Shown: in pieces, positions 1-63,338 of the stretch
How positions within the stretch are numbered: position 1 is the stretch's first letter
Layout: each line of letters opens with the position of its first letter
DNA from: Halothermothrix orenii H 168
GTDB lineage: Bacteria > Bacillota > Halanaerobiia > Halanaerobiales > Halothermotrichaceae
Direction: 5' to 3'
NCBI RefSeq assembly: GCF_000020485.1
Contig: NC_011899.1
Span: 1,520,501 to 1,584,500 of the forward strand
DNA length: 64,000 bases
Translations under genes and position numbers: made by a program
Notes under the pieces: generated by a model
Database searches by the model: none
The model's input: only the letters and a program-made list of their open reading frames with translations
What the model was told of the DNA's origin: nothing

Positions 1-1158
1 AAGTTGAATCGGCATCAACATCATAGGACAGGAATCGACACACCGGGCACATTTAATACATGGTCTGGGATTAAAATCCTCAATCTCTTCTGGAGGTAAA
101 ATCAAAAGACCTGAAGTCCCTTTATTGGAAGGAATTCCGGTATGAGGTTGTGAAATACCCATCATGGGTCCACCTACAATCACCTTACCTCCAGGAGAAA
201 CCATTCCTCCGGCCTGTTCAATCAAATCCTCGATTGGAGTCCCTACCCTGAATACTAAATTCAGGGGGTTCTTAACCCCTCTACCGGTAATAGTTACCGG
301 GCGTTCAATGAGGGGCATTCCCTTCTTAATAGCATCAGTTACCGCCACAGCTGTAGATACATTATTTACAATCACACCTACATCAAGCGGCAAACCTCCC
401 ACTGGCACTTCCCTATCCAGGAGGGCTTTAATTAACATCTTTTCGCCACCCTGGGGATATTTAGTCTCCAGAACCTTAACTTCAATCCCCGGTTCATTTT
501 CTACCACCTTTTTCATAGCCTGGATGGCGTCAGGTTTATTATCTTCAATTCCAATAAGTCCATTCTCTACCCCGGCGGCCTTCATCAAAGCCCTGAGGCC
601 AAAGACAACATCTTCAGACCTTTCCACCATAATCCGGTGGTCAACTGTTAGATAAGGTTCACACTCAGCACCATTAAGAATAACATGATCAATTTCTTTG
701 CCTTCGGGGACATTAAGCTTAACATGGGTAGGAAAAGTAGCCCCACCTAAACCAACAATCCCCGCCTCTCTTATAATGTTTTTAATGTCTTCAGGGGTTA
801 AATCACTTAATTCACCCCGGGGTTTGATACTCTCATCAAGAACATCCTCTTCATCAGCTTCAATTACAACGGCCCTGGACTTTTTACCACTTGGGGTTAA
901 AACATCAGTTATATCTTTAACAGTACCAGAAACCGAGGCATGAACAGGAGCTGATACAAAAGCATCAGTATCCCCGATTTTTTGACCCAGTTTGACCTGA
1001 TCACCTTTTTTTACCAAAGGATCACAGGGGGCCCCAATATGCTGTTGAAGGGGTATTACCACCTTACCGGGTCGTGCTGCTTTTTTTAATGGCTTATCTC
1101 TGGTAAGCTCTTTGTTATACTCAGGATGGACTCCCTGCCTGAATGTTAGTGCACCCAC
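1..1158 (-). CDS. rnfC: Rnf complex subunit C, N-terminal 386 codons (cut by window edge)
   Basis: RnfC carries FMN and Fe-S clusters in the membrane Rnf complex, which couples ferredoxin:NAD+ electron transfer to ion pumping. Seen: a GTG start behind AAAGGGGTG; an N-terminal 'FRQGVHPEYNKELT' segment; the family's 'VVIPLQQHIGAP' and 'VSAPVHASVSGTVK' stretches; and at the left edge the first ferredoxin-type cluster motif CIKCARCVDSCP. The second cluster and C-terminus lie outside the window. By family convention the rest of the operon (rnfD, G, E, A, B) should follow to the left. RnfG and RnfD are known ApbE flavinylation substrates, so the apbE at 59-60 kb may also serve this complex. Confidence 0.93.
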   Translation of the reverse strand, partial: MGALTFRQGVHPEYNKELTRDKPLKKAARPGKVVIPLQQHIGAPCDPLVKKGDQVKLGQKIGDTDAFVSAPVHASVSGTVKDITDVLTPSGKKSRAVVIEADEEDVLDESIKPRGELSDLTPEDIKNIIREAGIVGLGGATFPTHVKLNVPEGKEIDHVILNGAECEPYLTVDHRIMVERSEDVVFGLRALMKAAGVENGLIGIEDNKPDAIQAMKKVVENEPGIEVKVLETKYPQGGEKMLIKALLDREVPVGGLPLDVGVIVNNVSTAVAVTDAIKKGMPLIERPVTITGRGVKNPLNLVFRVGTPIEDLIEQAGGMVSPGGKVIVGGPMMGISQPHTGIPSNKGTSGLLILPPEEIEDFNPRPCIKCARCVDSCPMMLMPIQL

Positions 1159-49018: not shown

Positions 49019-49762
49019 CTATATACCCCTGTCAATAAATAACCAGGGGCAGATAATACGCTCCAGCAGGTCTATCAACAGAAACAGGGAGAGGCCAAGA
49101 AGGCTTAAAATTAAAATCCCGGCATACATTTCAGTATAGTTGACCCTGGTCCAGCAATCCATAATAAAGTACCCCAGTCCCCTGAAAGTAGCAAAGGTTT
49201 CGGTCAGGAAAAGGACAGCTATAGCTGTACCAATACTTATTCTGGTAGCCGTAAAAATTTTAGGGAAAGTGGCTGGAATTATTACTTCCCGGTATATCTG
49301 CATACTCCCTGCCCCCAGGGATTTAACCGAAATAATAAGCTCAGGATCAATATTTTTGGCAGCATCTCTGGTGGTCACTACTATCTGGAAGAATACTATA
49401 AAGGCAATCAAGAATATTTTTGACATATTCCCCAGGCCCAGGAAAAGCAAAACCAGAGGCAAAAAAGCAATTTTGGGGACAGGGTAACCCAGGTAGATTA
49501 CAGGGCTCAATACCTTATCCAGCTCCTTGTTTCTACCGAGTAATAACCCCACCGGAACACCTGTTAACAGACCGAATAATAGACCATAGCCAACCCTGTA
49601 AAGGCTAACCCCCAGATGAGTTAACAATATACTTCTCTGTTTAACCAAAACGGAGACAACCTCAAAGGGTGAAGGTAGAACCGGAGAATTAAGCAGGATT
49701 GATGCCATATACCATATTATAAAAAGTACAACAATCACTAATAGATATCTTAGCAGTTTCAA
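49019..49762 (-). CDS. ABC transporter permease (SsuC/TauC type)
   Basis: A 247-residue permease with six spans and the family's loop 'AAKNIDPELIISVKSLGAGSMQIYREVIIPATFPKIFTATRIS', typical of importers for sulfonates, nitrate, pyrimidine precursors or aromatic acids. It starts one base after the ATPase stop. It is the last gene of the run that begins at ubiX; no clear terminator follows before amyA. Confidence 0.92.
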   Translation of the reverse strand: MKLLRYLLVIVVLFIIWYMASILLNSPVLPSPFEVVSVLVKQRSILLTHLGVSLYRVGYGLLFGLLTGVPVGLLLGRNKELDKVLSPVIYLGYPVPKIAFLPLVLLFLGLGNMSKIFLIAFIVFFQIVVTTRDAAKNIDPELIISVKSLGAGSMQIYREVIIPATFPKIFTATRISIGTAIAVLFLTETFATFRGLGYFIMDCWTRVNYTEMYAGILILSLLGLSLFLLIDLLERIICPWLFIDRGI

Positions 49763-49763
49763 T

Positions 49764-50510
49764 TTATAAACCCTCCTTCAAAAGGGCCCGTAGTCGGCCA
49801 CACTGTTTATAAAAAGACGGGTCATTTCTCCAGTCTTCACGGGCAAAATGAGGGTTATCGATAACTGTTACTATCCTCCCCGGGGGTGATGACATAACTA
49901 CAATCTTCTGTCCCAAAAAAACCGCTTCTTCGATACTGTGGGTGACCAGAAAGGCTGTCAGGCTATATTTCTTCCAGACCTTTAAAAAGAGGTCTTGAAT
50001 TTCCTCCCTTGTCAGGGCATCCAGGGAAGAAAAAGGCTCATCCATTAATAACAACCGGGGCCTCAGGCTTAAGGCCCTTCCAATGGCAACCCGCTGTCGC
50101 TGTCCCCCGCTCAACTGCCTGGGGTAACAGTCCTTATAGTCCCCCAGCTTTAATTCGGACAGTATCCTGTCGACCCTGTCTTCAATCTCCCCTGACCTAA
50201 CCCCCCTCAATTTCAAACCGAGAGCAATATTGTTCCAGGTCGTCTTCCACGGTAAAAGGCCGTATTCCTGGAGAATAATTGCCACATCTCTTCTCTGGCC
50301 CCGGACCGGGGAACCATCAATAAAAATGGTACCCCGGTCCGGATTTAAAATCCCGGCCAGAAGGTATATCAGGGTAGTTTTTCCACAACCTGACGGCCCG
50401 ATCAAAGCACAGGTAGTTCCCTCGGGAATCATCAGGTTAATATTATCCAGGACCTTTATTTGTCCGCCATTGTGGTTATATGAAAAAGAGAGGTGTTCAA
50501 CTCTGACCAT
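49764..50510 (-). CDS. ABC transporter ATPase (SsuB/TauB type)
   Basis: A 248-residue ATPase. Walker A 'GPSGCGKTT' (about 39-47), Q-loop 'ILQEYGLLPWKTTWNNI', signature 'LSGGQRQRVAIGRAL', Walker B 'LLLMDEPFSSLD' and H-loop 'LVTHSIEEA' are all intact. 'LLPWKTxWNN' is the SsuB-type feature. It couples ATP hydrolysis to uptake through the permease encoded next; 20 bases after the binding-protein gene. Confidence 0.95.
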   Translation of the reverse strand: MVRVEHLSFSYNHNGGQIKVLDNINLMIPEGTTCALIGPSGCGKTTLIYLLAGILNPDRGTIFIDGSPVRGQRRDVAIILQEYGLLPWKTTWNNIALGLKLRGVRSGEIEDRVDRILSELKLGDYKDCYPRQLSGGQRQRVAIGRALSLRPRLLLMDEPFSSLDALTREEIQDLFLKVWKKYSLTAFLVTHSIEEAVFLGQKIVVMSSPPGRIVTVIDNPHFAREDWRNDPSFYKQCGRLRALLKEGL

Positions 50511-50530
50511 ATTTACTCCTCCACCTTAAG

Positions 50531-51478
50531 TTAGTGAACTGATGTGTTTTTTACAAAAAAATCGGTCACCAAATCCTGATATTTAACCTTGTCCTTTAAA
50601 AGCCCTTTCTCTTCCATCCATTCCATAACTCCGTCTACCATTTCCCGGGTTGGCAGGGCCGGCTTATGGTAATGGGGAAATTTAAAAACATCCCGAACCC
50701 TGGCAGGGAACCCCCCTTTTTCTACCAGAAGGGAGCGGTAAGCTTCAGGGTTGGAATTTATTCTTTCAACAGCCTGTCGGTAAGCCCTGTAGAAGGCTTT
50801 GATTTCGTCAGTTTTTTCGTTTATAGCCCCTTCATTAAAAAGAATTACAACCGGTACTCCCCCGGCCAGTTCATCACTTGTTGCCAGAACTTTTGCCCCC
50901 TTTTTATGGGCCAGAGTAGCCAGGGGTTCAGGCAGGGTAGCAGCTGCGACCTGACCGGCATTTAGCATCTGGAGCCTGACCGGAATTTTGGGGATAGCAA
51001 CCCTGTTTATCTCTTCAGAATCGACCCCGTGTTCAGTTAATAACCGGTCGGTAATATATTCAATTATTGTATTCCGGGACATGGCCACTGGTTTACCCCT
51101 GAGATCCTTAACCCCGCTTGCTTCCATCTTACCTGAAGATAGAAGTAAAAAACGATTGTTAATATGAGAAGTAATTTTAATCTTATGACCATTGGAAACA
51201 GCAAAAACAGCCGCCAGTACATCAGAGATAGTTCCATCAATAACCCCGGCCTGAAGGGCACTATCCCGTTCCAGGGCATTAGTAAAGTTGACCAGCTCAA
51301 TATCATAACCGGCAGCCCCAAAAAAACCTTCTTCCCGGGCTACCAGAAAAGGAAGGGCTGTGTCATCAGGCAGGATTCCAAACCGGATTTTTGCCCCGGC
51401 TGGCAAAGTAAAAATGCCTGTCAGTAAAAAGATACTTAATAGATATAACGACAATTTTTTAAACATGTTTTTAAACAT
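50531..51478 (-). CDS. ABC transporter substrate-binding protein (NMT1/SsuA-like)
   Basis: A 315-residue periplasmic binding protein. Leader 'MFKKLSLYLLSIFLLTGIFTLPAGA' with signal peptidase I site (AGA-K), no lipobox. Mature part 'IRFGILPDDTALPFLVAREEGFF' and 'DGTISDVLAAVFA' are typical of NMT1/THI5-like proteins. The fold is shared with MqnA/MqnD enzymes of the futalosine menaquinone route, but the signal peptide, ATPase and permease argue for transport. Its position 17 bases after an aminotransferase gene, in a run with quinone-type genes, suggests the ligand may be a quinone precursor or an amine; this is inference. Confidence 0.9.
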   Translation of the reverse strand: MFKNMFKKLSLYLLSIFLLTGIFTLPAGAKIRFGILPDDTALPFLVAREEGFFGAAGYDIELVNFTNALERDSALQAGVIDGTISDVLAAVFAVSNGHKIKITSHINNRFLLLSSGKMEASGVKDLRGKPVAMSRNTIIEYITDRLLTEHGVDSEEINRVAIPKIPVRLQMLNAGQVAAATLPEPLATLAHKKGAKVLATSDELAGGVPVVILFNEGAINEKTDEIKAFYRAYRQAVERINSNPEAYRSLLVEKGGFPARVRDVFKFPHYHKPALPTREMVDGVMEWMEEKGLLKDKVKYQDLVTDFFVKNTSVH

Positions 51479-51495
51479 GGTTCCATAACCCTCCT

Positions 51496-52809
51496 CTAGT
51501 CAAGGCCAGCTTCTTTTTCTACTTCATTCAGGACTTCATCGAGGGTAGCAATAACCTGCTCCACATCTTTTTTATTAATAATCAAAGGAGGCTGGAAGGC
51601 GAGAACATTCCGGGAAGGACCATTTTTACCAATTAAAATACCGCGGTCCTTCATCTTTTCAAGAACCAGATCTGTTTCATCAGGGGCAGGCTCTTTATTT
51701 TCTTTTACCAGCTCTGCTCCCAGCATGAGACCCAGACCCCGGACATCACCAATTATCCTGTGTCTTTTGGCCAGGTTTTCCAGACCATTTTTAAAATATA
51801 AACCAACTTCAGCTGCATTTTCTGTCAGTTTTTCCTCTTCGATAACCTTCAGTGTAGCCAGACCGGCTGTAGCGCTTACTGGGTTTCCTCCCAGGGTTGA
51901 AGCCCCGGGGCGGGTATAGACATCAGCAACCTCTTCAGTGGCTGTAAAAGCACCAATGGGGACACCATTACCGAGGGCCTTGGCCATGGTCATAATATCA
52001 GGGGTAACCCCCCAGTTTTCAATGGCAAACATTTTACCGGTCCGCCCAAACCCGGTCTGAACTTCATCAATTATTAATAACGCCCCATATTCATCGAGGA
52101 TATCCCTGACGACTTTAAAGTACTCCGGGGGTGGGGTAATTATACCACCGTTACCCTGAATCGGTTCAGCAATCAGGGCTGCCACCTGTTTTGAAGTTGA
52201 AGTTTCAATTACATCCCTTATGGCCCGGGCACATTTGAGGTCACACCCCGGGTATTCAAGTCCATAAGGACAACGATAGCAGTATGCATCAGGGGCAAAA
52301 CTTATTCCACCGGCCGGGTTGGGGTCTGTTCTCCAGAAAGATAACCCGGTAATACTCATGGTTAAATGAGTTCTACCATGAAGCCCCTGCTTTAAGGCAA
52401 TATACTCAGAATTCCCCGTATACAACTTGGCCAGGAGTAAAGCACCCTCATTGGCTTCAGTACCACTATTGACAAAAAAGCTCTTCTTTAAGTTGCCGGG
52501 TGTAACTTCAGCCAATTTCTCAGCCAGGTCAACAATAGGCTGGTTCAAATAAATAGTACAGGTGTGCTGCAAGGTCTTAACCTGCTCACAGACCCTGTCT
52601 GTAATTTCAGGGTGACAGTGACCGGCGTTCATCACCGAAACCCCGGCAAAAAGATCTAAATACTCTTTACCTGCCTGGTCATAAAAATATTTTCCTTTAG
52701 CCCTCACCAGCTGCATTGGGTTTTTATAAAAATGGTAAACACAGGGAATCAGATACTCCTTTTTCTTGTCAATTATGGCATCGGGACCAATATAATTTTT
52801 CTCACCCAC
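51496..52809 (-). CDS. class III PLP aminotransferase (AGXT2 / beta-alanine-pyruvate group)
   Basis: A 437-residue transaminase. PLP motif '[21 protein letters not shown]' (about 240-260) is followed by the Schiff-base Lys in '[16 protein letters not shown]'. '[19 protein letters not shown]' binds the cofactor phosphate. The Cys-rich stretch '[17 protein letters not shown]' is typical of the alanine-glyoxylate / 3-aminoisobutyrate-pyruvate branch. It is placed between the U32 gene and the importer and probably acts on the imported compound or supplies amino groups; its true substrate is unknown. Confidence 0.88.
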
Positions 52810-52873
52810 ATTACCCCTCCTTTTAATTTTTAAGCAAATTTTTTAAAACAAACTATCATAACAGTTTTGTGGA

Positions 52874-54883
52874 TTAAGTACCGGTCCCCAGGACCCCTTT
52901 CTCGTAGGCTGCCAGGGTATAACCGGTATCACTTAACCCCTTAAGCTCATTATATAACGATGTTTTTTCCTGTGACCAGCGACCATTTTTAATAGCTATA
53001 AAGGCCCGTTTATAGATATCAACTACAGCCTCTACCTTTGCAGCATTATAAAGTCCGGCCTCAATCCTGAAACTCTTTATACCTGATAATAATATTCTAT
53101 CCAGAAATGGGAGGAGAGCAAGCTCTTTACTGAGATAAAGATGGGTCCGGCAATACTGATCGGTCATAACAGGGTAAACCCTCTTTTTATCATTGACAAG
53201 TCCATATCTCTCACCCCGACAGGGGGCAGAACACTGATCCTCCGGAGTCTTCCCTTCCAGAAGTTCAGAAAGGAGACAGTGGTCAGATACCATAAAGGGA
53301 AGATGGCCATGACCGATAAGCTCGAGGTCCATATCTGTACCTGAAGCCATCTTTAAAATCTGCTTCAGGGAAGATTCCAGTTGATTTGTAACCTGAACCA
53401 CCCCGGATTCTTTTAAAATACTGAGAGCCCTGGTGTTAAACGCATTAACTCCAAAATCTGCCATAACCCTGGTATCAAAATACTCATTCAGGGCTCTGAT
53501 CATCCCCAGGTTACCGGCCATAACTCCACCGGTTTGCTCCAGATCTAATCCCTTCAACAACTCAATATATTCTTCCATTTCATCAGAGAAAGTAATTCTG
53601 GGGGTAGTTACTACCACTTCCACCCCTGCTTTTTCGGCTTTATCAAGGACCTTGTTTATAACCTCCTGGCCACAGGGAGGTTTCCAGGACGGAGTTTCAC
53701 CACCTATATAGATGCGGTCTACCCCTGACTTTAAAGCAGCTTCAGCCTCCTCAAGACCGTTAACCTTAATCGATAGCAAAGGAAGGGCCACAACCTCCTT
53801 TGCCCCTGAACTATAATCCGTGGGGTTATCTATATCCAGTTTAAGATCCATATCAAGATCCATGTCAGGATTTAATTTTTTCTCCTCCCGGGCTTCACTA
53901 AAAAACTTGGGTTCCCTCTCCCCGGTATAACCGATTCCATCTGACCCCGGATTCTTAAGGGCAAAACAGGTACTGAAATCCCGGACCCGGTGATCATAGA
54001 GGTCACGGTAAATATCCTCATCAACCGTATAACCCACCGGATCATCAAGGTACCTGTCGATAGCTGTCCGGTAAGCAGATACAATTCTCTTAAGCTGACT
54101 GGCCGGCTTCATTCTGCCCTCTATCTTAAAGGAGACAATTCCCGACCTGATCAACTGGGGTATATGCCGGAAAACACACATATCCTTTACCGCCAGGAAG
54201 TAAGGACCGTCAGCCTTAACCTCTACCCCCTCTTCAAAATAACCGTTTTTATACCGGGCCAGGCTATAGGGCCAGCGACAGGGCTTTAGACAACGCCCCC
54301 TGTTGCTGCTGTTCCCAAAAACCATACCACTCAATAAACACTGCCCACTCTGAGAAAAACACATATCTCCATGTATAAAATATTCATATTCAAAGCCGGT
54401 TTCCCGGGTCATATGCCTCACCTGGTCAAAGGATAATTCCCGGCTAACTATAAACCTTCTGACTCCATGGTCATGTAAATACCGGGCCATATCTATGTTA
54501 TGAACATTCATCATTACACTGGAGTGTACAGGAACCTCAAGCCCCAGCTCATTAATAAGATAGAGTAATCCCAGGTCCTGAACTATAAAAGCATCAACCT
54601 CAATTTCAGCCAGATACTGAAGATATGGTGCTATCTCATCAAGTTCCTCATCGCCCTGTAAATTATTAACAGTTACATATATCTTTACTCCCCGGCTGTG
54701 GGCCAGGTTAACAGCCTCTTTTAATTCTTCATTACTGAAGTTGAAACCGGTCCTGAGAAGCCTCATATTATGCTTTTTACCACCCAGGTAAACAGCATCT
54801 GCCCCGGCTTCAATTACCGTTTCCAGGGCCTCCCACTTACCGGCAGGAGCCAGTAGTTCCACGTTATTTATCATCATTATCAT
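52874..54883 (-). CDS. double-domain U32 family protein
   Basis: A 669-residue protein built of two U32 TIM-barrel halves. Half one (about 5-330): 'LLAPAGKWEALETVIEAGADAVYLGGKKHNMR' and a four-Cys cluster site in 'MCFSQSGQCLLSGMVFGNSSNRGRCLKPCRW'. Half two (about 365-660): 'LEEAEAALKSGVDRIYIGGE' and four Cys in 'DHCLLSE', 'DQCSAPC' and 'DQYCRTH'. U32 proteins, despite the 'peptidase' name, include UbiU/UbiV (O2-independent ubiquinone hydroxylation) and RlhA/TrhP (RNA hydroxylation), each with 4Fe-4S clusters. Its start overlaps the ubiX 3' end by about 20 bases, favouring a quinone-related role, but long U32 proteins with RNA-modifying roles are the alternative. The start may be ATG 54883 or ATG 54877. 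Confidence 0.85.
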   Translation of the reverse strand: MIMMINNVELLAPAGKWEALETVIEAGADAVYLGGKKHNMRLLRTGFNFSNEELKEAVNLAHSRGVKIYVTVNNLQGDEELDEIAPYLQYLAEIEVDAFIVQDLGLLYLINELGLEVPVHSSVMMNVHNIDMARYLHDHGVRRFIVSRELSFDQVRHMTRETGFEYEYFIHGDMCFSQSGQCLLSGMVFGNSSNRGRCLKPCRWPYSLARYKNGYFEEGVEVKADGPYFLAVKDMCVFRHIPQLIRSGIVSFKIEGRMKPASQLKRIVSAYRTAIDRYLDDPVGYTVDEDIYRDLYDHRVRDFSTCFALKNPGSDGIGYTGEREPKFFSEAREEKKLNPDMDLDMDLKLDIDNPTDYSSGAKEVVALPLLSIKVNGLEEAEAALKSGVDRIYIGGETPSWKPPCGQEVINKVLDKAEKAGVEVVVTTPRITFSDEMEEYIELLKGLDLEQTGGVMAGNLGMIRALNEYFDTRVMADFGVNAFNTRALSILKESGVVQVTNQLESSLKQILKMASGTDMDLELIGHGHLPFMVSDHCLLSELLEGKTPEDQCSAPCRGERYGLVNDKKRVYPVMTDQYCRTHLYLSKELALLPFLDRILLSGIKSFRIEAGLYNAAKVEAVVDIYKRAFIAIKNGRWSQEKTSLYNELKGLSDTGYTLAAYEKGVLGTGT

Positions 54884-55481
54884 GCACTCCTTTCCAGCGT
54901 TGGTAAAGGCTATGCTCCAGTTGAAGGTGGTCCAGTACTCTTCCCACTACAAAATCTATAAGCTCCGATATACTCCGGGGATGGTTATAAAAGGCGGGCA
55001 TGGCCGGTACCACATCAGCCCCCATTTTTTTTAAAGCCAGCATATTCTCCAGGTGAATCTGGTTTAAGGGGGTTTCCCGGGGAACCAGGATCAATTTCTT
55101 GTTTTCTTTAAGGGCCACATCACAGACCCTTTCCAGGAGATTCGAGGAAAACCCATGGGCAACCCGGGCCAGGGTTCCCATGGTACAGGGGATAACCACC
55201 ACAGCATCCGGAGCCCTGCTTCCACTGGCAATTTTGGCCGTAATATCATCTATCTTTTCCCGGGAAATCAAATCAGGCCTTGAAAGATCCCATTCGGCCT
55301 GTATTGAAGCAAGGGGGTTATCCTTTTTAATGGATAAATCCAGTTCCTGTGACAGTACCTTCTCTCCCGCCTCTGTTATCAAAAGGGTCTGTTTATGTCC
55401 GAGGCGGTTTACCTCTTCAACAAACCGTTTCCCGTAAATAACCCCACTGGCTCCTGTTATGGCAGTAACTATCTTCAACAA
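54864..55481 (-). CDS. ubiX: flavin prenyltransferase UbiX
   Basis: Makes prenylated FMN, the cofactor of UbiD decarboxylases, from FMN and dimethylallyl phosphate. 205 residues; TTG start behind AAAAGGAG. 'AITGASGVIYGKRFVEEV' (FMN loop), 'IPCTMGTLARVAHGFSSNLLERVCDVALKENKKLILVPRETPLN' and 'IHLENMLALKKMGADVVPAMPAFYNHPRSI' are the complete family signature. It starts the run ubiX-U32-aminotransferase-ABC. The ubiD partner lies upstream on the same strand beyond a 340-base gap and ubiA. Confidence 0.96.
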   Translation of the reverse strand: MLKIVTAITGASGVIYGKRFVEEVNRLGHKQTLLITEAGEKVLSQELDLSIKKDNPLASIQAEWDLSRPDLISREKIDDITAKIASGSRAPDAVVVIPCTMGTLARVAHGFSSNLLERVCDVALKENKKLILVPRETPLNQIHLENMLALKKMGADVVPAMPAFYNHPRSISELIDFVVGRVLDHLQLEHSLYQRWKGVHDNDDK

Positions 55482-55821
55482 TTGTCTATCAACTCCTTTT
55501 CAGTAAATGCTGAAGGTTCGAATTCAGTAAATTGAGTGTTTTATTGATCACTAATGTAATGTTTTATTTTTTCATGTAGGTAATAAGGTGTTATGCAATA
55601 AGGCAATAAAGATTATATTCTAAAGTAGTTGTAAAGTAGTTGTTTTAAAGTAGTTGTTGTAAAGCAATACATTAAGTTTGAGTGTACTAAAGCATTATAA
55701 TAGTTACCCTAAAGCCTTATATTAATGTAATAAAGCATTACATCAAATGAACTACTATATCTGATGTATTTTTACCATAGAATAGTAATTCGTCAGAAAA
55801 GTAATAATTTATGATAATACA
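55482..55821. repeat. intergenic region with triplicated 11-base repeat
   Basis: This 340-base AT-rich gap between ubiA and ubiX contains three copies of TAAAGTAGTTG (55621-55631, 55632-55642, 55646-55656). Several looser TAAAGCATTA/TAAAGCAATAC units follow up to about 55750. It presumably holds the ubiX promoter. It could bind a regulator or be a replication-slippage expansion; no gene is visible. Confidence 0.6.
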
Positions 55822-56685
55822 TTAAAACAGTAATATATCAAGGACTGATGCCAGTAATAAAACTGGCCCTATTATTTCATTAACATTATAGGAGGCCTTA
55901 TTCACCCGGCTCAAATCATCAGGGGATACCAGTCGGTGCTGGTAGATTAACAGACCACCTATAATTACAAGTCCGAGGTAATATATCAATCCCAGGGGGA
56001 AAAAACAGGGTAATATAACCAGTAGTAAAAAGGCCAGAAAATGCAACAACCTGGCAATCTTCAAACCACCACTGACTCCGAACCGGGCTGGAATGGAATA
56101 AACCCCTTCTGTGGTATCAAATTGGTAATCCTGGGTAGCATATATGATATCAAACCCGGCCACCCACAGGGCCTGAACCATGGCCAGTATAATAACCCCG
56201 GGAGCAAGACCCCCCCTGACCGCAAGCCAGGCTCCTAAGGGGGCTAAAGCCACTGAAAAGCCCAAGAACAGATGACAGGCCCAGGTAAAACGTTTGGTAT
56301 AGGAATAAAAGATAACAATAATAACTGCCAGGGGAAGCAATTTAAGACAGATGGGATGTAGATTAAAAGCTGCCAGAATTAAGAGGGTAAAACAGAAAAC
56401 AGTTAAAAAAACAACTTCCCGGGGTGAAACCTCACCCCTTGGTAGGTGCCGGTCAGCCGTTCTGGGGTTCTTTTTATCAATATCCATATCTGCCAGCCGG
56501 TTCCAGGCATTGGCCCCATTTCTGGCCCCGATCATAGCCACCGTAACCCAGAAAAAATAGGAAAGATCAATTTTCCCACCCAAAGCCAGGAATAAAGACA
56601 GATAGGCAAAAGGAAGAGCAAAAATAGTATGTTCAAACATAACCAGGTCGGCATAGGTTTTTACTTTTTTATATATTAATTCCAT
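55822..56685 (-). CDS. ubiA: UbiA-family 4-hydroxybenzoate/naphthoate prenyltransferase (UbiA/MqnP-like)
   Basis: A 287-residue enzyme with eight to nine spans. First Asp-rich motif 'NAWNRLADMDIDKKNPRTADR' (about 60-80); second 'DIIYATQDYQFDTTEGVYSIPARFG' (about 180-204). This form is shared by bacterial UbiA and by MqnP of the futalosine menaquinone route. It overlaps ubiD by 17 bases, so the pair is co-translated: prenylation followed by decarboxylation. The acceptor could be 4-hydroxybenzoate, 1,4-dihydroxy-6-naphthoate or another phenolic acid; no chorismate-consuming gene is in the window. Confidence 0.92.
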   Translation of the reverse strand: MELIYKKVKTYADLVMFEHTIFALPFAYLSLFLALGGKIDLSYFFWVTVAMIGARNGANAWNRLADMDIDKKNPRTADRHLPRGEVSPREVVFLTVFCFTLLILAAFNLHPICLKLLPLAVIIVIFYSYTKRFTWACHLFLGFSVALAPLGAWLAVRGGLAPGVIILAMVQALWVAGFDIIYATQDYQFDTTEGVYSIPARFGVSGGLKIARLLHFLAFLLLVILPCFFPLGLIYYLGLVIIGGLLIYQHRLVSPDDLSRVNKASYNVNEIIGPVLLLASVLDILLF

Positions 56686-58114
56686 ACTCCTGCCACCTCT
56701 TATCGACCAGCTTTTTTATCTTTTTATTCATCTCTATTTCAGGGGGCCACTCCCTTGTATGACCCTCTTCCGGCCAGGCTTTAGTAGCATCAATCCCCAT
56801 CTTGGAGCCGTAATGGCGGACAGGGGAAGAGTGGTCCAGGGCATCAAGCGGACCATCGACAATAACTACATCCCGTCTGGCATCTATATTATTAAACACC
56901 TTCCAGGCCACTGTTGACAGGTCCTGAACATCGACATCTTCATCAACTACAATAATCATTTTAGTATACATCATCTGACCCAGCCCCCACAGGGCGTGCA
57001 TTACTTTTTTAGCATGGCCGGGGTAGGATTTTTTTATAGAAATTATAGCACAGTTATGGAATACCCCCTCGAGGGGTAAATTCATATCTACAATTTCCGG
57101 AAGTTGCATCTTGAGGAGTGGTAAGAAGATCCTCTCCGTTGCTTTAGCCATAAAACAATCTTCCATGGGAGGTTTGCCAACTACTGTTGCATTATAAACG
57201 GGCTGATTCCGCCTGGTAATGGCCTGGACATGAAAGACAGGATACTCATCAACCAGGGAATAATAACCCGTATGGTCACCAAAGGGTCCTTCTTTCCTTA
57301 ACTCCCCCGGTTTAACATAACCCTCGAGAATTATTTCAGCATTGGCCGGGACTTTAAGGTCCACAGTCCGGCATTTTACCATCTCAACCGGCTCCTTACG
57401 TAAAAACCCGGCAAAAAGCATCTCATCTATCCCGGCTGGCAGGGGAGCGGTGGCCGCATATATAGTAGCGGGATCGGCCCCGATGGCTACAGCAACCTCC
57501 ATTTTTTCCCTGTTGCCAAGATGTTTCCGATAATTCTCGGCACCATCTTTATGTATATGCCAGTGCATACCGGTCGTTTTTTTATCAAAAACCTGAAGGC
57601 GGTACATCCCCACATTCTGGCGACCTGTCCCCGGGTCTTTTGTAAAAACCAGGGGAAGGGTAATATAACGACCCCCGTCACCGGGCCAGCACTTCAATAT
57701 GGGAAGACTTCCCAGGTCAACATTCTCCTCAACCACTTCCTGGCAGGGAGCCTTCTTTACTGTACGCGGTAAAAAATCCCCCAGTTCTTTCAACAGGGGG
57801 AGCATTTTTAACTTATCCAGAAAATTTTCCGGGGTCGGCAGCTGTAAATACTGATTTATCCTGTCCCCTATATCATCAAGGCTTTCTGCCTCCAGAGCCA
57901 GCTCCATTCTCCTGATAGAACCAAAGGCATTAATTAAAACCGGAAAATCAGAACCCTTAACATTTTCAAATAAAAGGGCCGGCCCCCCATTTTTAACAAC
58001 ACGGTCGGTTATTTCTGTTATTTCCAGGACCGGGTCTACTTCAACCCCGACCCTCACCAGTTCATTTTCCCTTTCAAGGGTCTTAATAAAGTCACTTAAA
58101 TCACGGTAAGCCAT
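56669..58114 (-). CDS. ubiD: UbiD-family prenyl-FMN decarboxylase
   Basis: Removes the carboxyl group from a prenylated aromatic acid using prenyl-FMN made by UbiX. 481 residues. 'NVGMYRLQVFDKKTTGMHWHIHKDGAENY' contains the cofactor/metal residues. 'LRKEGPFGDHTGYYS' holds the two catalytic Glu/Asp of the E-R-E network. 'NCAIISIKKSYPGHAKKVMHALWG' and the C-terminal 'GSKMGIDATKAWPEEGHTREWPPEI' are typical of the UbiD/MqnL branch. 17 bases after the polyprenyl synthase gene. Confidence 0.95.
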   Translation of the reverse strand: MAYRDLSDFIKTLERENELVRVGVEVDPVLEITEITDRVVKNGGPALLFENVKGSDFPVLINAFGSIRRMELALEAESLDDIGDRINQYLQLPTPENFLDKLKMLPLLKELGDFLPRTVKKAPCQEVVEENVDLGSLPILKCWPGDGGRYITLPLVFTKDPGTGRQNVGMYRLQVFDKKTTGMHWHIHKDGAENYRKHLGNREKMEVAVAIGADPATIYAATAPLPAGIDEMLFAGFLRKEPVEMVKCRTVDLKVPANAEIILEGYVKPGELRKEGPFGDHTGYYSLVDEYPVFHVQAITRRNQPVYNATVVGKPPMEDCFMAKATERIFLPLLKMQLPEIVDMNLPLEGVFHNCAIISIKKSYPGHAKKVMHALWGLGQMMYTKMIIVVDEDVDVQDLSTVAWKVFNNIDARRDVVIVDGPLDALDHSSPVRHYGSKMGIDATKAWPEEGHTREWPPEIEMNKKIKKLVDKRWQEYGINI

Positions 58115-58131
58115 ATACCATCACCCTGTCT

Positions 58132-59118
58132 TTATTGTTGTCGATTTAATTGAAGCGATAATATAAAATTAAGCTCCTCTTTTACCCTTTCATCAGGTAA
58201 ATGCTCGACATATTTCTGAGATTTTTCAATATACCTTTTACCCAGTTCTCTGCTTTGATTTATAGCCTTACTGTTATTCACCATATTGATAATATCAACT
58301 ACATCTGAGACCGACAGCCTGTCTTTACCCAGGATCTCCCGGGCCCTGTCCCTGAAAATCTCATCCTGAACCAGGTAGATTACAGGGAGATTATATATCC
58401 CATTTATTAAATCCTGGCCTATTGCTTTTCCTGACTCCTCGGGGTCAGCCACAAAATCTAGAATATCATCCTGAATCTGAAAAGCAGTTCCCAACCTGAG
58501 ACCAAATCTATATATATTTGACAGGTTCCTCCCCCGGACACCACTCTCATAGGCCCCGATATATGTACTCAATCCAAATAGCAGGGCTGTTTTCCTCCTG
58601 ATTCTCCGGAGGTACTCCCGGATAGAAACCTTATATTCAAATTTATCCTCATACTGATCTATTTCCCCTTCACAGATTAAACCGACAACCTTATTTAGCT
58701 TTCGTAAAGAGTGCCGACTTAAATAGAGGGTAAAAATATCAAAGGCCCGGCTTAACATAAAATCACCCAGAAAGACAGCAACATCCTTACCAAATTTACT
58801 CTGGGCTGAGATTTCCCCTCGTCTTATCCTGGCTTCATCTATAATATCATCATGAACCAGGGTAGCCATATGCAAAAGTTCAATTGCTGAAGCAATATGG
58901 TATATTTTCTCTTTATCAAAATCACCCAACCGGGCTGACAAAACCACCAGTAAGGGCCTTAACCTTTTACCACCACTCTCAACAAGGTCTCTGGTAGCTA
59001 TATTAATTAACCCCACCCTGGTTTTAGTTATCTCCCATATAATTTCATCTATTTTTTCAATAACCGGAGCAAATCTCTGTCTGTACTCGGCAATACTATA
59101 TTTGCTCATCATTATCAT
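58132..59118 (-). CDS. trans-polyprenyl diphosphate synthase
   Basis: A 328-residue E-type prenyl synthase that builds the quinone side chain (hepta- to octaprenyl range) from farnesyl-type primers and IPP. First DDxxD 'LVHDDIIDEARIRRG' (about 90-104), second 'QIQDDILDFVADPEESGKAIGQD' (about 214-236), plus 'ESGGKRLRPLL'. Three ATGs (59118, 59112, 59109) lie inside the 3' end of apbE, so translation is coupled. It plays the part that DmkB has in the Listeria electron-transfer locus. Chain length cannot be read from sequence with confidence. Confidence 0.93.
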   Translation of the reverse strand: MIMMSKYSIAEYRQRFAPVIEKIDEIIWEITKTRVGLINIATRDLVESGGKRLRPLLVVLSARLGDFDKEKIYHIASAIELLHMATLVHDDIIDEARIRRGEISAQSKFGKDVAVFLGDFMLSRAFDIFTLYLSRHSLRKLNKVVGLICEGEIDQYEDKFEYKVSIREYLRRIRRKTALLFGLSTYIGAYESGVRGRNLSNIYRFGLRLGTAFQIQDDILDFVADPEESGKAIGQDLINGIYNLPVIYLVQDEIFRDRAREILGKDRLSVSDVVDIINMVNNSKAINQSRELGKRYIEKSQKYVEHLPDERVKEELNFILSLQLNRQQ

Positions 59119-60178
59119 TCCCTACAAGTTTAAAATCCTGGTTCAGGACCTTAATCTTATTCTTAAGGCCTTCTGACAGAATTATCTCTAAATCTTTATT
59201 TATAAACATAACTTCAACCCCATTAAGGCTCTCCACTAGCTCCAGTCCTCTATCAACCCCCATGACAAAGACACTGGTTGATAGGGCATCGGCATCAAAA
59301 GAATCATCACAGATAATGGTAGCACTCAAAAGATTTGTCCGGGCCGGTGAGCCTGTTTTGGGATCAATAATATGGTGGTAAACCACCCCGTCTTTTTCAA
59401 AATACCGTTCATAATTACCCGAAGTTACAATAGCCTTATCCTTAACCTTAAAACTGGCCATAACACTACCCCGTTCCCGACGGGGGTCCTGAATCCCCAC
59501 AACCCAGGGCGAACCATCGGGCTTGCCACCTACAACCAGAACATTTCCCCCCAGATTTACAAAGGCATGCTCAACACGGTGTTTTTTAAATATCCTCCTG
59601 ACTTCATCTGCCGCATATCCTTTAGCAATAGCACCCAGGTCTATTCCCATACCCGGTTTTTGCAACACTACCGTCTTTTCTTCTTCATCAAGCTTAATCA
59701 ACTTATAATTAACCAACCTTTTTGCCTCTTCGATCTCTGACCGGGCAGGTACCCGTGCATTTTCAGTACCTATACCCCAGAGGCTGACCAGAGGCCTGAT
59801 ACTGGGATCAAAATTACCATCGGTTATTTCAGCATAAGTTATTGCCTTTCTAATAACACGAAAGGTATCAGAATCAACCTTGACCGGTTCTCCCGGGTTA
59901 GAATTAATTTTGTAAATATAGCTGGATTTAAGGGTAACACTCATCTCATTCTCGATTTCACGCATTCTCTGAAAAGCCTCTTCAATAACTTTGTCTGGCT
60001 TTTCACCATAAACCTTCATACTTACAATGGTATCCATTAAAAAAGAAGATTTGCTGGCAGCAGGCAAATCATTCTTTTCTTTTTGTCCCTGACAGCCATT
60101 TAACACGAAGACAACTATTAAGACTAAACATATGACTGCGATAATCCCGCAACACCTTTTTTGCATATATAATTTCAT
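59096..60178 (-). CDS. apbE: FAD:protein FMN transferase ApbE, lipoprotein
   Basis: Attaches FMN covalently to Ser/Thr of target proteins outside the cytoplasm. 360 residues. Lipoprotein leader ending in lipobox 'VLNGC' (Cys29). 'DTIVSMKVYG' starts the catalytic domain; 'GIDLGAIAKGYAADEVRRIF', 'AFVNLGGNVLVVGGKPDG' and 'DADALSTSVFVMGVDRGLELV' are the FAD- and Mg-binding stretches. It heads the run apbE-polyprenyl synthase-ubiD-ubiA and lies next to the doubly FMN-binding protein, its obvious substrate. FmnB of Listeria is the closest functional analogue. Confidence 0.96.
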   Translation of the reverse strand: MKLYMQKRCCGIIAVICLVLIVVFVLNGCQGQKEKNDLPAASKSSFLMDTIVSMKVYGEKPDKVIEEAFQRMREIENEMSVTLKSSYIYKINSNPGEPVKVDSDTFRVIRKAITYAEITDGNFDPSIRPLVSLWGIGTENARVPARSEIEEAKRLVNYKLIKLDEEEKTVVLQKPGMGIDLGAIAKGYAADEVRRIFKKHRVEHAFVNLGGNVLVVGGKPDGSPWVVGIQDPRRERGSVMASFKVKDKAIVTSGNYERYFEKDGVVYHHIIDPKTGSPARTNLLSATIICDDSFDADALSTSVFVMGVDRGLELVESLNGVEVMFINKDLEIILSEGLKNKIKVLNQDFKLVGNDNDEQI

Positions 60179-60551
60179 AAGCCTTCACACCCTGTTATTT
60201 CTCTATTGTTCTATTATTCCGTTAAAATTAAGAATAAATTAGCCTTTGACAAAATCATTTAAAAGATAAATGAAAGCCTCGACGTCCAGATATTAAACTC
60301 AACAGTTCGCTATTGATAATGGAGATTTTAAAGATTGTTAATGCCGAAAAATATCCACCAGAAAAACACCTGTGTACAAATTCTGGACATTAAAAAATAA
60401 CAGTCACCTTTTTTATTTTATCATAAAAATATAAATATAAAAACAAATAACAAAGATATAAACTCTACTGAAATAAAATACGATTGTAATTCATATGTCA
60501 AAAAAGAAAGCCCCGCTGGGGGGCTTTCCCTTGGAATTTAAATTTAAAAAC
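60179..60551. other. intergenic stretch between apbE and the FMN-binding gene
   Basis: 373 AT-rich bases holding the promoter region of the apbE operon and the terminator of the FMN-binding gene (60499-60528). A single CATATGTC (60492-60499) repeats the half-site of the inverted repeat at 61270-61306. No gene or structured RNA seen. Confidence 0.55.
60499..60528 (-). terminator. intrinsic terminator of the FMN-binding protein gene
   Basis: Minus-strand stem AAAGCCCC / GGGGCTTT followed by CTTTTTT. It makes the FMN-binding gene a separate transcript from apbE. Confidence 0.9.
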
Positions 60552-61238
60552 TTATTTTAAACCAGCCTGTTCCATGGCCATATCAAGGGCTTCATTATAG
60601 CTGTGACCACTGTGGGTAGCACCACTGACAATATCAACATTACCCTGATTTTCCACTACTTTTTCAGGGAATTCTTTGAAGTACTTAAGGGCTACTTCGT
60701 GAGGATAGCTGTCATCTTTAGCAGGCATTAATTTTTCCCGGCCATCTTCTTTTTTCAATAATTCAGGATTGGCAGTTATAAGCCTGCAGTCTGTTATTTT
60801 GTCCCCCTCAACGGTAATTTCAACAACAACATGGCCGTGTTCAAAGTTTTCAGCTACACCGTAGTATTTATTGCCATCATAATTACCGCTGGCAATATCT
60901 AAAGCCATCTGGGTAGCTTTTTCATAGTCATGGCAGCTGTGGGTAGCCCCACTGATGACATCATGTTTGGCAGACTGTTTTTCTAAAACCATATAAGGCC
61001 ATTCCAGGAAAGCCTTTTTACCGGCTTCATACTTATAATGGAGTTTAAAGGGGTTTAACATGTTAATATCAGTAATCTGGCCCCTCTCAATTACAACCTC
61101 AATTACAACATCACCATGATCATTAGGAACATAACCTACATAATGCCCATCCTTGTGCTGTACATCAGCAGCGGCAATCCCAAAACTTAAAGTAAGTACT
61201 AAAACAGCAGCCAGCAGAATTGCAAGACCTTTTTTCAT
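60552..61238 (-). CDS. secreted protein with two FMN-binding domains (PplA-like)
   Basis: 228 residues from ATG 61238; a TTG 12 bases upstream abuts GGGAGGAG. Signal peptide 'MKKGLAILLAAVLVLTLSFGIAAA-D', without a lipobox. Two tandem FMN_bind domains (about 30-115 and 125-225), each ending in the ApbE flavinylation motif: D93-V-I-S-G-A-T99 and D202-I-V-S-G-A-T208. Thr99 and Thr208 are the predicted FMN attachment sites. PplA, the extracellular electron carrier of Listeria, also has two such domains but is a lipoprotein; here the protein should be soluble in the periplasm. Its likely role is to carry electrons from a quinol or membrane enzyme onward. Confidence 0.92.
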   Translation of the reverse strand: MKKGLAILLAAVLVLTLSFGIAAADVQHKDGHYVGYVPNDHGDVVIEVVIERGQITDINMLNPFKLHYKYEAGKKAFLEWPYMVLEKQSAKHDVISGATHSCHDYEKATQMALDIASGNYDGNKYYGVAENFEHGHVVVEITVEGDKITDCRLITANPELLKKEDGREKLMPAKDDSYPHEVALKYFKEFPEKVVENQGNVDIVSGATHSGHSYNEALDMAMEQAGLK

Positions 61239-61269: not shown

Positions 61270-61306
61270 GACATATGTGTCATTTGTTCATAATATCACA
61301 TATGTC
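61270..61306. promoter_or_regulatory. inverted repeat GACATATGTG-17-CACATATGTC
   Basis: Two perfect 10-base inverted arms (61270-61279 and 61297-61306), 32 bases upstream of the FMN-binding gene start and about 160 bases before the ndh promoter. Probable binding site of a dimeric regulator overlapping the FMN gene promoter. Confidence 0.6.
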
Positions 61307-61556: not shown

Positions 61557-63338
61557 ATGTCTAAAAACATCATTATTCTGGGGGCCGGGTATGGTGGTGT
61601 CGCAGCAGCTAAAAAATTACACAAATTATTAAAAAAGAAGGATGACACTACCATTACCCTGATCGATAAAAACCCCTTCCATACCTTGCTTACTGAAATT
61701 CATCAGGTGGCGGGTAATAGAATTGATGAAGATGGGGTTAAAATTGGTCTTAATGAACTATTTGAATCAACTAAAGTTAATGTAGTCCAGGATCAAATCA
61801 AGGACATCGATTTTGAAAACAAAACACTAAAATCTGATAATTATCTATATAATTATGATTATCTCATTCTGGGTACCGGTAGTGAACCAGCTGATTGCGG
61901 GGTTAAAGGTGTTGCTGACTATGCCTACACTTTATGGTCAATAGATGATGCCAAAAAAATCAAAAAACACATAATAGAAATGTTCCAGAGAGCCCGGGTT
62001 GTTGATGATCCTGCCCTCAGGAAGGAATTACTGACTTTTGTCGTCTGTGGGGGTGGGTTTACCGGGGTTGAAATGGTTGGAGAATTAGTTGAATGGATGG
62101 ATGACCTCTGTTACCAGTACGGAATTGACAGAAGTGAAATCGACCTTTATTTATGTGAGGGTCTGGACAGAATTCTACCCAATTTAAATGACAAACTGGT
62201 AGACAAAGCCATGAAATATCTTGATAAAGTTGGTGTCAAGGTCAAAACCGGTTCTTTCGTATCTGAAGTTAAAGAAGACGGTTTAACCATGGCAAATGGG
62301 GACACATTAAAAACCAGAACAGTTATCTGGAACTGTGGTGTTGTTGCTTCAGACTTTGCAGCCAATCTCGGTTTAGATACCGATAAAGCCGGCAGGGTAA
62401 AGGTTAATAAGTATCTCCAGACTGAAAAATATCCTGAAGTTTATGCCATCGGAGATAACAGTCATGTTCCTAACGAAGAAGGCAAACCATTACCGGCCCT
62501 GGTAGAGACTGCCCTCCAGACCGGCGAGTGTGCTGCTGAAAATATTGTTGCCGACATCAATGGTGAACCGAAAGAAGAGATGGAACCTGATTATCACGGA
62601 ATCCTGGTCTCCATCGGCGGCAAATATGCAGTAGCTGACGTCATGGGCATGTCCTTAAAAGGCTGGTTTGGTATGTTTATGAAACATGTCGTCAATATGC
62701 ACTACCTCTTCGAAATTGGTGGATTAAAGAAAGGTTTTAATTACATCAGTAAATATTTAAAAGAACAGGGCTCCCATAAGGGACTGGTAGCCCAGGGCTT
62801 TGACCATTTTAGTCAGCGGTCCCGTACCTTCTGGGTTGCCTTCCTGCGTATATTCCTGGGTTTTCAGTGGTTATTCAGTGGCCTGGACAAAGTTCATTCA
62901 GGCTGGTTGCTTAAAGGAGACAAACTGGTAGCCGGGGCCTCAACATCCCCGATCGGGCCTAATCCTGTTGAGTGGTATGTAACCTTTATGGAAAATGTGG
63001 TTTTCGAATACCCCTTACTCTTCCAGTATATGATTACCCTGGGAGAACTGGCTCTGGCTTTCTCTCTCATCCTGGGAGTCTTCAGTACTCTGGGAGCACT
63101 GGGGTCTACTGTTATGACTATTAACTTCTTCCTGTCAGGTTTCTATCCCCAGAATCCAACCTTGCCATGGTTCCTGATGGCCTCCATCGCCTGTATCGGT
63201 GCGTCAGGTCGGGCCCTTGGACTGGATTATTATATCCTGCCATGGTTAAAGAAACTTGTCTGGGGACGCCGTAAAGGGAAAAATAAAGACCTGCAAAACG
63301 TTGTGAAACCCCTAAATGAAGGTCAGCAAAGCAGTTAA
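61557..63338 (+). CDS. ndh: type II NADH dehydrogenase fused to a C-terminal DoxX-like membrane domain
   Basis: 593 residues. Residues 1-400 are a non-pumping NADH:quinone oxidoreductase: FAD motif 'IIILGAGYGGVAAAKKL', NADH motif 'VVCGGGFTGVEMVGELVEWM' (about 162-181), and 'VYAIGDNSHV' closing the FAD site. Residues about 420-575 form four membrane spans of the DoxX/TQO type, starting 'FWVAFLRIFLGFQWLFSGLDKVHSGW'; 'PVEWYVTFMENVVF' lies in the loop. Ordinary NDH-2 is about 400-450 residues and membrane-bound by amphipathic helices. The Listeria electron-transfer Ndh2 also carries an added C-terminal membrane domain. GGGGGAGG precedes the ATG. Monocistronic with its own promoter and terminator; divergent from the FMN-binding gene. 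Confidence 0.94.
   Translation: MSKNIIILGAGYGGVAAAKKLHKLLKKKDDTTITLIDKNPFHTLLTEIHQVAGNRIDEDGVKIGLNELFESTKVNVVQDQIKDIDFENKTLKSDNYLYNYDYLILGTGSEPADCGVKGVADYAYTLWSIDDAKKIKKHIIEMFQRARVVDDPALRKELLTFVVCGGGFTGVEMVGELVEWMDDLCYQYGIDRSEIDLYLCEGLDRILPNLNDKLVDKAMKYLDKVGVKVKTGSFVSEVKEDGLTMANGDTLKTRTVIWNCGVVASDFAANLGLDTDKAGRVKVNKYLQTEKYPEVYAIGDNSHVPNEEGKPLPALVETALQTGECAAENIVADINGEPKEEMEPDYHGILVSIGGKYAVADVMGMSLKGWFGMFMKHVVNMHYLFEIGGLKKGFNYISKYLKEQGSHKGLVAQGFDHFSQRSRTFWVAFLRIFLGFQWLFSGLDKVHSGWLLKGDKLVAGASTSPIGPNPVEWYVTFMENVVFEYPLLFQYMITLGELALAFSLILGVFSTLGALGSTVMTINFFLSGFYPQNPTLPWFLMASIACIGASGRALGLDYYILPWLKKLVWGRRKGKNKDLQNVVKPLNEGQQSS

Follow-up and report, generated by a model that had tools for sequence, protein, structure and literature searches.

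A lipobox-lacking two-domain FMN_bind protein of Halothermothrix orenii as a probable counterpart of PplA in a diderm cell

The window analysed here, a 64,000-nucleotide stretch of the Halothermothrix orenii H 168 genome (positions 1520501-1584500 on a single contig of 2,578,146 bp), encodes a two-domain FMN_bind protein, designated PPLA1. This protein is probably the PplA-equivalent carrier of a FLEET-like chain in a diderm member of the Bacillota, acting after Ndh2 and quinone. A FLEET-like role is supported by gene content and conservation. The domains of the protein, its conserved flavinylation sites, its missing lipobox, its conserved gene neighbourhood and the presence of Omp85 genes were observed directly; flavinylation, solubility in the periplasm, electron source and acceptor are inferred. 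The organisms in which flavin-based extracellular electron transfer was elucidated are monoderm Gram-positive bacteria, whose carrier is tied to their single membrane. If our reading is correct, the conserved unanchored carrier of diderm Bacillota would represent the same chain adapted to a periplasm, and it would raise the question of how electrons pass over the outer membrane. What appears to be new is the missing anchor in a diderm lineage; the broad class of multi-flavinylated carriers is already published. The literature searched contained no description of an unanchored, diderm-restricted FLEET carrier as such, and a literature search for extracellular electron transfer in H. orenii found no paper. 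As a small thermophilic protein that would carry two flavins, PPLA1 should also be amenable to biochemistry. The carrier gene comprises the following features.

60552-61238, minus strand: two-domain FMN_bind protein PPLA1, 228 aa (Pfam, genome scan, alignment, AlphaFold model)
61167-61238, minus strand: predicted signal peptide, residues 1-24 (MKKGLAILLAAVLVLTLSFGIAAA), without a lipobox (sequence and alignment)
60942-60962, minus strand: flavinylation motif 1, DVISGAT, residues 93-99, putative acceptor T99
60615-60635, minus strand: flavinylation motif 2, DIVSGAT, residues 202-208, putative acceptor T208

The open reading frame begins with an ATG at 61238, preceded by AGGGAGGAG, and its stop codon ends at 60552. 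Two stretches of the product match Pfam FMN_bind (PF04205) above the curated cut-off (2.6e-13, 50.9 bits), and the two halves, scored singly in the genome scan, reach 29.6 and 24.6 bits against a curated FMN_bind cut-off of 22. An alignment of one half to the other gives 37% identity (E 4e-17), which excludes chance and indicates a true internal duplication. The doubled domain reported in the initial annotation is thereby borne out, and the D-x-x-S-G-A-T sites that it placed at T99 and T208 match exactly. An AlphaFold model (pLDDT 83.9, pTM 0.79) contains a three-strand, two-helix unit twice, rather than the single-domain structure that the same annotation had regarded as incompatible with its reading. 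The best fold matches are solved covalent-FMN domains (8p2a, Z 10.4; 3o6u, Z 10.3; 8p2b, Z 9.2); matches with Z under 8, including IscU and lipoate ligase, were attributed to a common arrangement and rejected as kinship. Judged by sequence, PPLA1 has the features of a multi-flavinylated protein, namely more than one FMN_bind domain and [S/T]GA[S/T]-type sites, and it would be expected to carry two covalent FMN groups, on T99 and T208.

An ndh2-like gene lies upstream of the carrier gene and is divergent from it, and five genes follow downstream on the carrier's own strand. These genes and two non-coding features of the locus are listed here.

61557-63338, plus strand: Ndh2-like NADH dehydrogenase ending in a DoxX/DoxD-like membrane part (PF07992, 3.5e-42; PF07681, 1.9e-5)
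61270-61306, no strand assigned: inverted repeat GACATATGTG-N17-CACATATGTC, a possible operator within the divergent promoter region
60502-60532, minus strand: hairpin plus T run just 3' of the carrier stop codon, probable terminator (-19.2 kcal/mol, z -3.0)
59096-60178, minus strand: ApbE flavin transferase, FmnB-like, with its own lipobox VLNGC, presumed modifying enzyme (Pfam PF02424, 2.7e-98)
58132-59118, minus strand: HepT/DmkB-like polyprenyl diphosphate synthase, for the quinone tail (PF00348, 2.1e-64; TIGR02748, 8.5e-83, under cut-off)
56669-58114, minus strand: UbiD-family menaquinone decarboxylase, MqnL type (TIGR03701, 677 bits, cut-off 495.9)
55822-56685, minus strand: UbiA-family prenyltransferase, MqnP-like (TIGR01475, over cut-off; NF041586, 1.9e-102, under cut-off)
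54864-55481, minus strand: UbiX flavin prenyltransferase, for the UbiD cofactor (TIGR00421, over cut-off)

The locus therefore has the composition by which a FLEET locus is recognised, with an ndh2 gene encoding a membrane C-terminus, apbE and a polyprenyl synthase gene beside the carrier. Two of its features count against the FLEET-carrier reading. First, eetA (PF07009) and eetB (PF07456) are absent from the carrier locus of this genome and are found with its RNF operon instead. Second, the gap between the carrier gene and apbE measures 373 bp and contains the hairpin terminator; given this gap and the probable terminator, the amounts of carrier and ApbE may differ. The inverted repeat just upstream of the carrier gene is perfect, with a chance expectation of zero, and no counterpart of it or conserved operator was seen in the divergent promoter regions of the orthologues.

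The possibility that PPLA1 is unique to one genome was rejected, as 19 complete clade members were found, the window's included. Orthologues are present in 10 other genomes of the order Halanaerobiales, one of which is truncated where its contig stops; the complete ones show 45-68% full-length identity, and residues D93, G97, A98 and T99 of motif 1 are unchanged across 10 orthologues. Both flavinylation sites are retained in 18 of the 19 complete clade members. Among two-domain proteins that are more distant, 21 of 49 have both sites in the form [STA]GA[TS]. Gene order is conserved as well. The arrangement ndh2 (divergent) / carrier-apbE-hepT is complete in eight genomes of the order, including that of the window, and a ninth has carrier-apbE-hepT on a contig that ends before ndh2. 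Outside the order, a member of the same class (L106) has ndh2 / carrier-apbE-eetA-eetB-hepT, and members of one other family (L107, L108, L109, L111 and L112) have hepT-eetB-eetA-apbE and ndh2 a few kilobases from the carrier. The genomes with eetA and eetB close to the carrier gene number six, all outside the order; an EetB homologue (PF07456) was found in 38/38 genomes of the order. Altogether, the carrier gene has apbE and hepT, and mostly also ndh2, as neighbours in 15 of the 19 complete clade members. FLEET neighbours were absent from the sequence read around four members (L046, L110, L113 and L114), which counts against the FLEET-carrier reading.

One of these four, the orthologue of Halanaerobium saccharolyticum MSL 17.2 (L046/L069), bears on the function of the group. 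It has lost site 2, with APSTKK in its place, has neither apbE nor ndh2 as a neighbour, and adjoins a gene for a P19 iron-binding protein (PF10634, 8.8e-63) and one for a membrane protein of FtrD-like type. FMN_bind genes within P19 clusters have been reported previously (PMC8238504), and the carrier might thus serve mainly in assimilatory periplasmic iron reduction, in which case an importer would receive the ferrous iron and there would be no extracellular flow of electrons. We consider this unlikely, because the H. saccharolyticum orthologue, in losing site 2, apbE and ndh2, looks like a reassigned copy, and because the neighbours in 15 of the 19 members are respiratory (apbE, hepT and mostly ndh2) and include no iron transport. 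This orthologue shares the setting of the FMN_bind proteins known from P19/FTR1 iron-uptake clusters (PMC8238504), whereas the window gene and most orthologues do not. Its setting hints at iron as the acceptor, and its loss of site 2 suggests that this site matters in the context of Ndh2. The P19/FtrD-like iron-uptake cluster (L046:3928-9768, also in L069) additionally includes MacB-like ABC genes.

PPLA1 appears to be exported by a short, hydrophobic signal, and the signals of its orthologues finish in AxA-type sites. The signal region contains no cysteine and hence no lipobox, as the initial annotation had stated in contrasting the protein with PplA, and a lipobox is also absent from all 19 complete clade members. 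After its predicted export, PPLA1 would presumably be soluble in the periplasm. Alternatively, the N-terminal hydrophobic segment could remain uncleaved and tether the carrier to the inner membrane, a PplA-like anchoring without lipid that would be in keeping with the single helix formed by residues 2-23 in the AlphaFold model. Such a tether seems improbable: the orthologues have a plausible signal-peptidase I site that retains small residues at -3/-1, and their domain 1 starts about 3-10 residues past that site, which leaves an anchored carrier no linker, whereas linkers are present in lipidated paralogues.

To relate lipidation to envelope type, lipoboxes were scored by a PROSITE-type pattern and Omp85 (PF01103) was taken as the marker of an outer membrane. 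The window genome encodes Omp85, and the Halanaerobiales, including H. orenii, have been described as diderm (PMC5007114), in agreement with the diderm cell assumed in the initial annotation. Omp85 is present in 19 of 19 genomes tested that have the PPLA1 clade. A lipobox occurs in 23 of the 24 two-domain proteins of Omp85-negative Bacillota, the sole exception (L141) having the near-lipobox SAPAC, versus 6 of 41 in Omp85-positive Bacillota (35 without). The raw Fisher p for this association is 4e-11, a value that is not readable as independent evidence, because the two states fall into tight groups on the tree and an independent-pairs test (68-row tree) provides only three contrasts on well supported branches, or five on all branches. 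The contrasts divide into about 1.7 for the trend, 1.3 with no difference and none opposed, and p 0.05 is unreachable with them. Five of the six lipidated two-domain proteins of diderm genomes belong to one lineage, that of a paralogue, which in the window genome is the following.

L009:7784-8539 (genome about 2008283-2009038), minus strand: PPLA2, second two-domain FMN_bind protein, with lipobox MVGC and a long linker

Since the lipobox-bearing PPLA2 occurs in the same genome as PPLA1, a diderm envelope alone does not dictate solubility, and the rule that diderm cells have soluble carriers was rejected on the basis of lipidated PPLA2 in this genome and other Halanaerobiales. The argument of the initial annotation, that a soluble shuttle crossing the periplasm would make sense in a diderm cell, stands in part: the pattern (35/41 without a lipobox versus 23/24 with one) fits it, but significance is not reached and a lipidated paralogue is present in the same genome. 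The missing anchor is thus consistent with a periplasmic shuttle in diderms, as an unproven tendency and not as a strict rule.

PplA of Listeria monocytogenes likewise has two FMN_bind domains and two sites, its flavinylated threonines being Thr143 and Thr265 (PMC8906456) and those of PPLA1 being predicted. Two flavinylation sites are therefore neither a novelty nor a difference from PplA, and the anchor is left as the sole contrast of those drawn at the outset. PplA's FLEET gene set also has ndh2, apbE (fmnB), a polyprenyl synthase gene (dmkB) and a UbiA-type prenyltransferase gene (dmkA) in common with the PPLA1 locus. PPLA1 differs from PplA in having no lipobox, in its length (228 aa, compared with the 302 positions of the PplA model), in the outer membrane of its host and in the location of eetA/eetB outside its locus in the window genome. 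Its score of 44.5 bits against the PplA model (NCBIfam NF041941), far from the cut-off of 325, counts against the FLEET-carrier reading.

Two flavins per carrier would be ordinary, given that multi-FMN_bind proteins are already published: 2081 such proteins were found in 1530 genomes (PMC8238504, Meheust 2021), two have been produced and demonstrated to bind several FMN groups covalently (PMC10339131), and many have been modelled structurally (PMC11334425). PPLA1 resembles the multi-flavinylated proteins (PMC8238504; SaFMN3 and CbFMN4, PMC10339131) in its more than one FMN_bind domain, its predicted extracytosolic location and its T-type sites, and SaFMN3 domain 2 and CbFMN4 domain 1 (PMC10339131) are matched by its fold. 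Unlike them, it has only two domains, is encoded in an Ndh2 locus and does not belong to a cell-wall-binding protein.

RnfG and NqrC also contain an FMN_bind domain, with FMN attached covalently to threonine through ApbE, but they have one domain each and are subunits of an ion-pumping complex in the inner membrane, whereas PPLA1 has two domains and no complex genes nearby. Identity of PPLA1 with RnfG or NqrC was rejected, as model scores are far under cut-off (18.3 bits for the RnfG model, cut-off 205) and there is no rnf operon context. The initial annotation was thus right to separate PPLA1 from single-domain RnfG; the genuine rnfG of this genome (L007:4348-4908) encodes a separate single-domain protein of 186 aa. 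The RNF operon (window 1-1158; L007:431-7158; L011:9169-9696) lies near the left edge of the window, about 60 kb from the carrier. Besides a second apbE, it includes genes of the EetA-like (NusG_II) and EetB-like (PF07456) types, and both flavinylation systems may therefore depend on it for FAD export. Although these operon genes, and the existence of multi-flavinylated RnfG proteins (PMC8238504), would be in line with a carrier that is an RNF subunit or side branch, fed by RnfG and not by Ndh2 and quinone, such a role is highly improbable in view of the poor RnfG model scores and of the fact that rnf genes adjoin no clade member in the sequence read, whereas ndh2 does.

In the FLEET-like chain that we favour, PPLA1 would be exported via its signal peptide and set free in the periplasm, and the neighbouring ApbE would transfer FMN from FAD to T99 and T208. 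The exporter of the FAD would presumably be the EetB-like ECF-S protein, whose gene lies 67 kb away alongside the RNF operon; in Listeria, EetB is the ECF-S subunit for FAD export (PMC9973259). Ndh2 would oxidise NADH and reduce membrane (demethyl)menaquinone, for which the products of the adjacent genes, HepT, UbiA, UbiD and UbiX, would provide the tail and ring steps. Either the quinol or the membrane part of Ndh2 would then reduce both FMN groups of the carrier, and the soluble carrier would hand electrons to acceptors past the inner membrane, ferric iron being the most likely one.

Where the quinone ring comes from deserves separate consideration. The window genome has late futalosine-type menaquinone steps (UbiA, UbiD, UbiX and HepT); MqnA and MqnD were not found in it and no MenD match exceeded the cut-off, which counts against the FLEET-carrier reading. 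In two Halanaerobium genomes (L123:5357-10078 and L124:8684-13473), ubiD-ubiA-ubiX, again encoding a TIGR03701-type UbiD and an MqnP-like UbiA, is followed directly by genes for an ABC substrate-binding protein and a permease, and MqnA and MqnD were likewise not found there, the MenD search having covered the window genome. An importer of the same NMT1/SsuA type is encoded in the window at 49019-51478, further down on the same strand, the stretch with the menaquinone genes spanning 49019-58114. It is possible that the quinone ring precursor is salvaged by import from outside. The FLEET system of Lactiplantibacillus plantarum requires external DHNA because its DHNA route is incomplete (PMC8837199). 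More speculatively, these loci may represent a diderm form of FLEET in which the carrier is a free two-flavin periplasmic shuttle whose lipid anchor was lost or never present, lipidation tracks envelope type across Bacillota, and the quinone is made from an imported ring precursor; we regard this combined proposal as doubtful.

Site sequences vary among the other FMN_bind proteins. The sites of PPLA2, which is conserved in other Halanaerobiales, are off-consensus (ENYSGAT and DTYSKAT), and three diderm two-domain relatives (L126, L127 and L129) have SKAT or TKAT rather than SGAT at both sites. The window genome also encodes a small single-domain FMN_bind protein of 127 aa (L010:4850-5233) with the motif DAISGAT, located after a flavodoxin-like gene.
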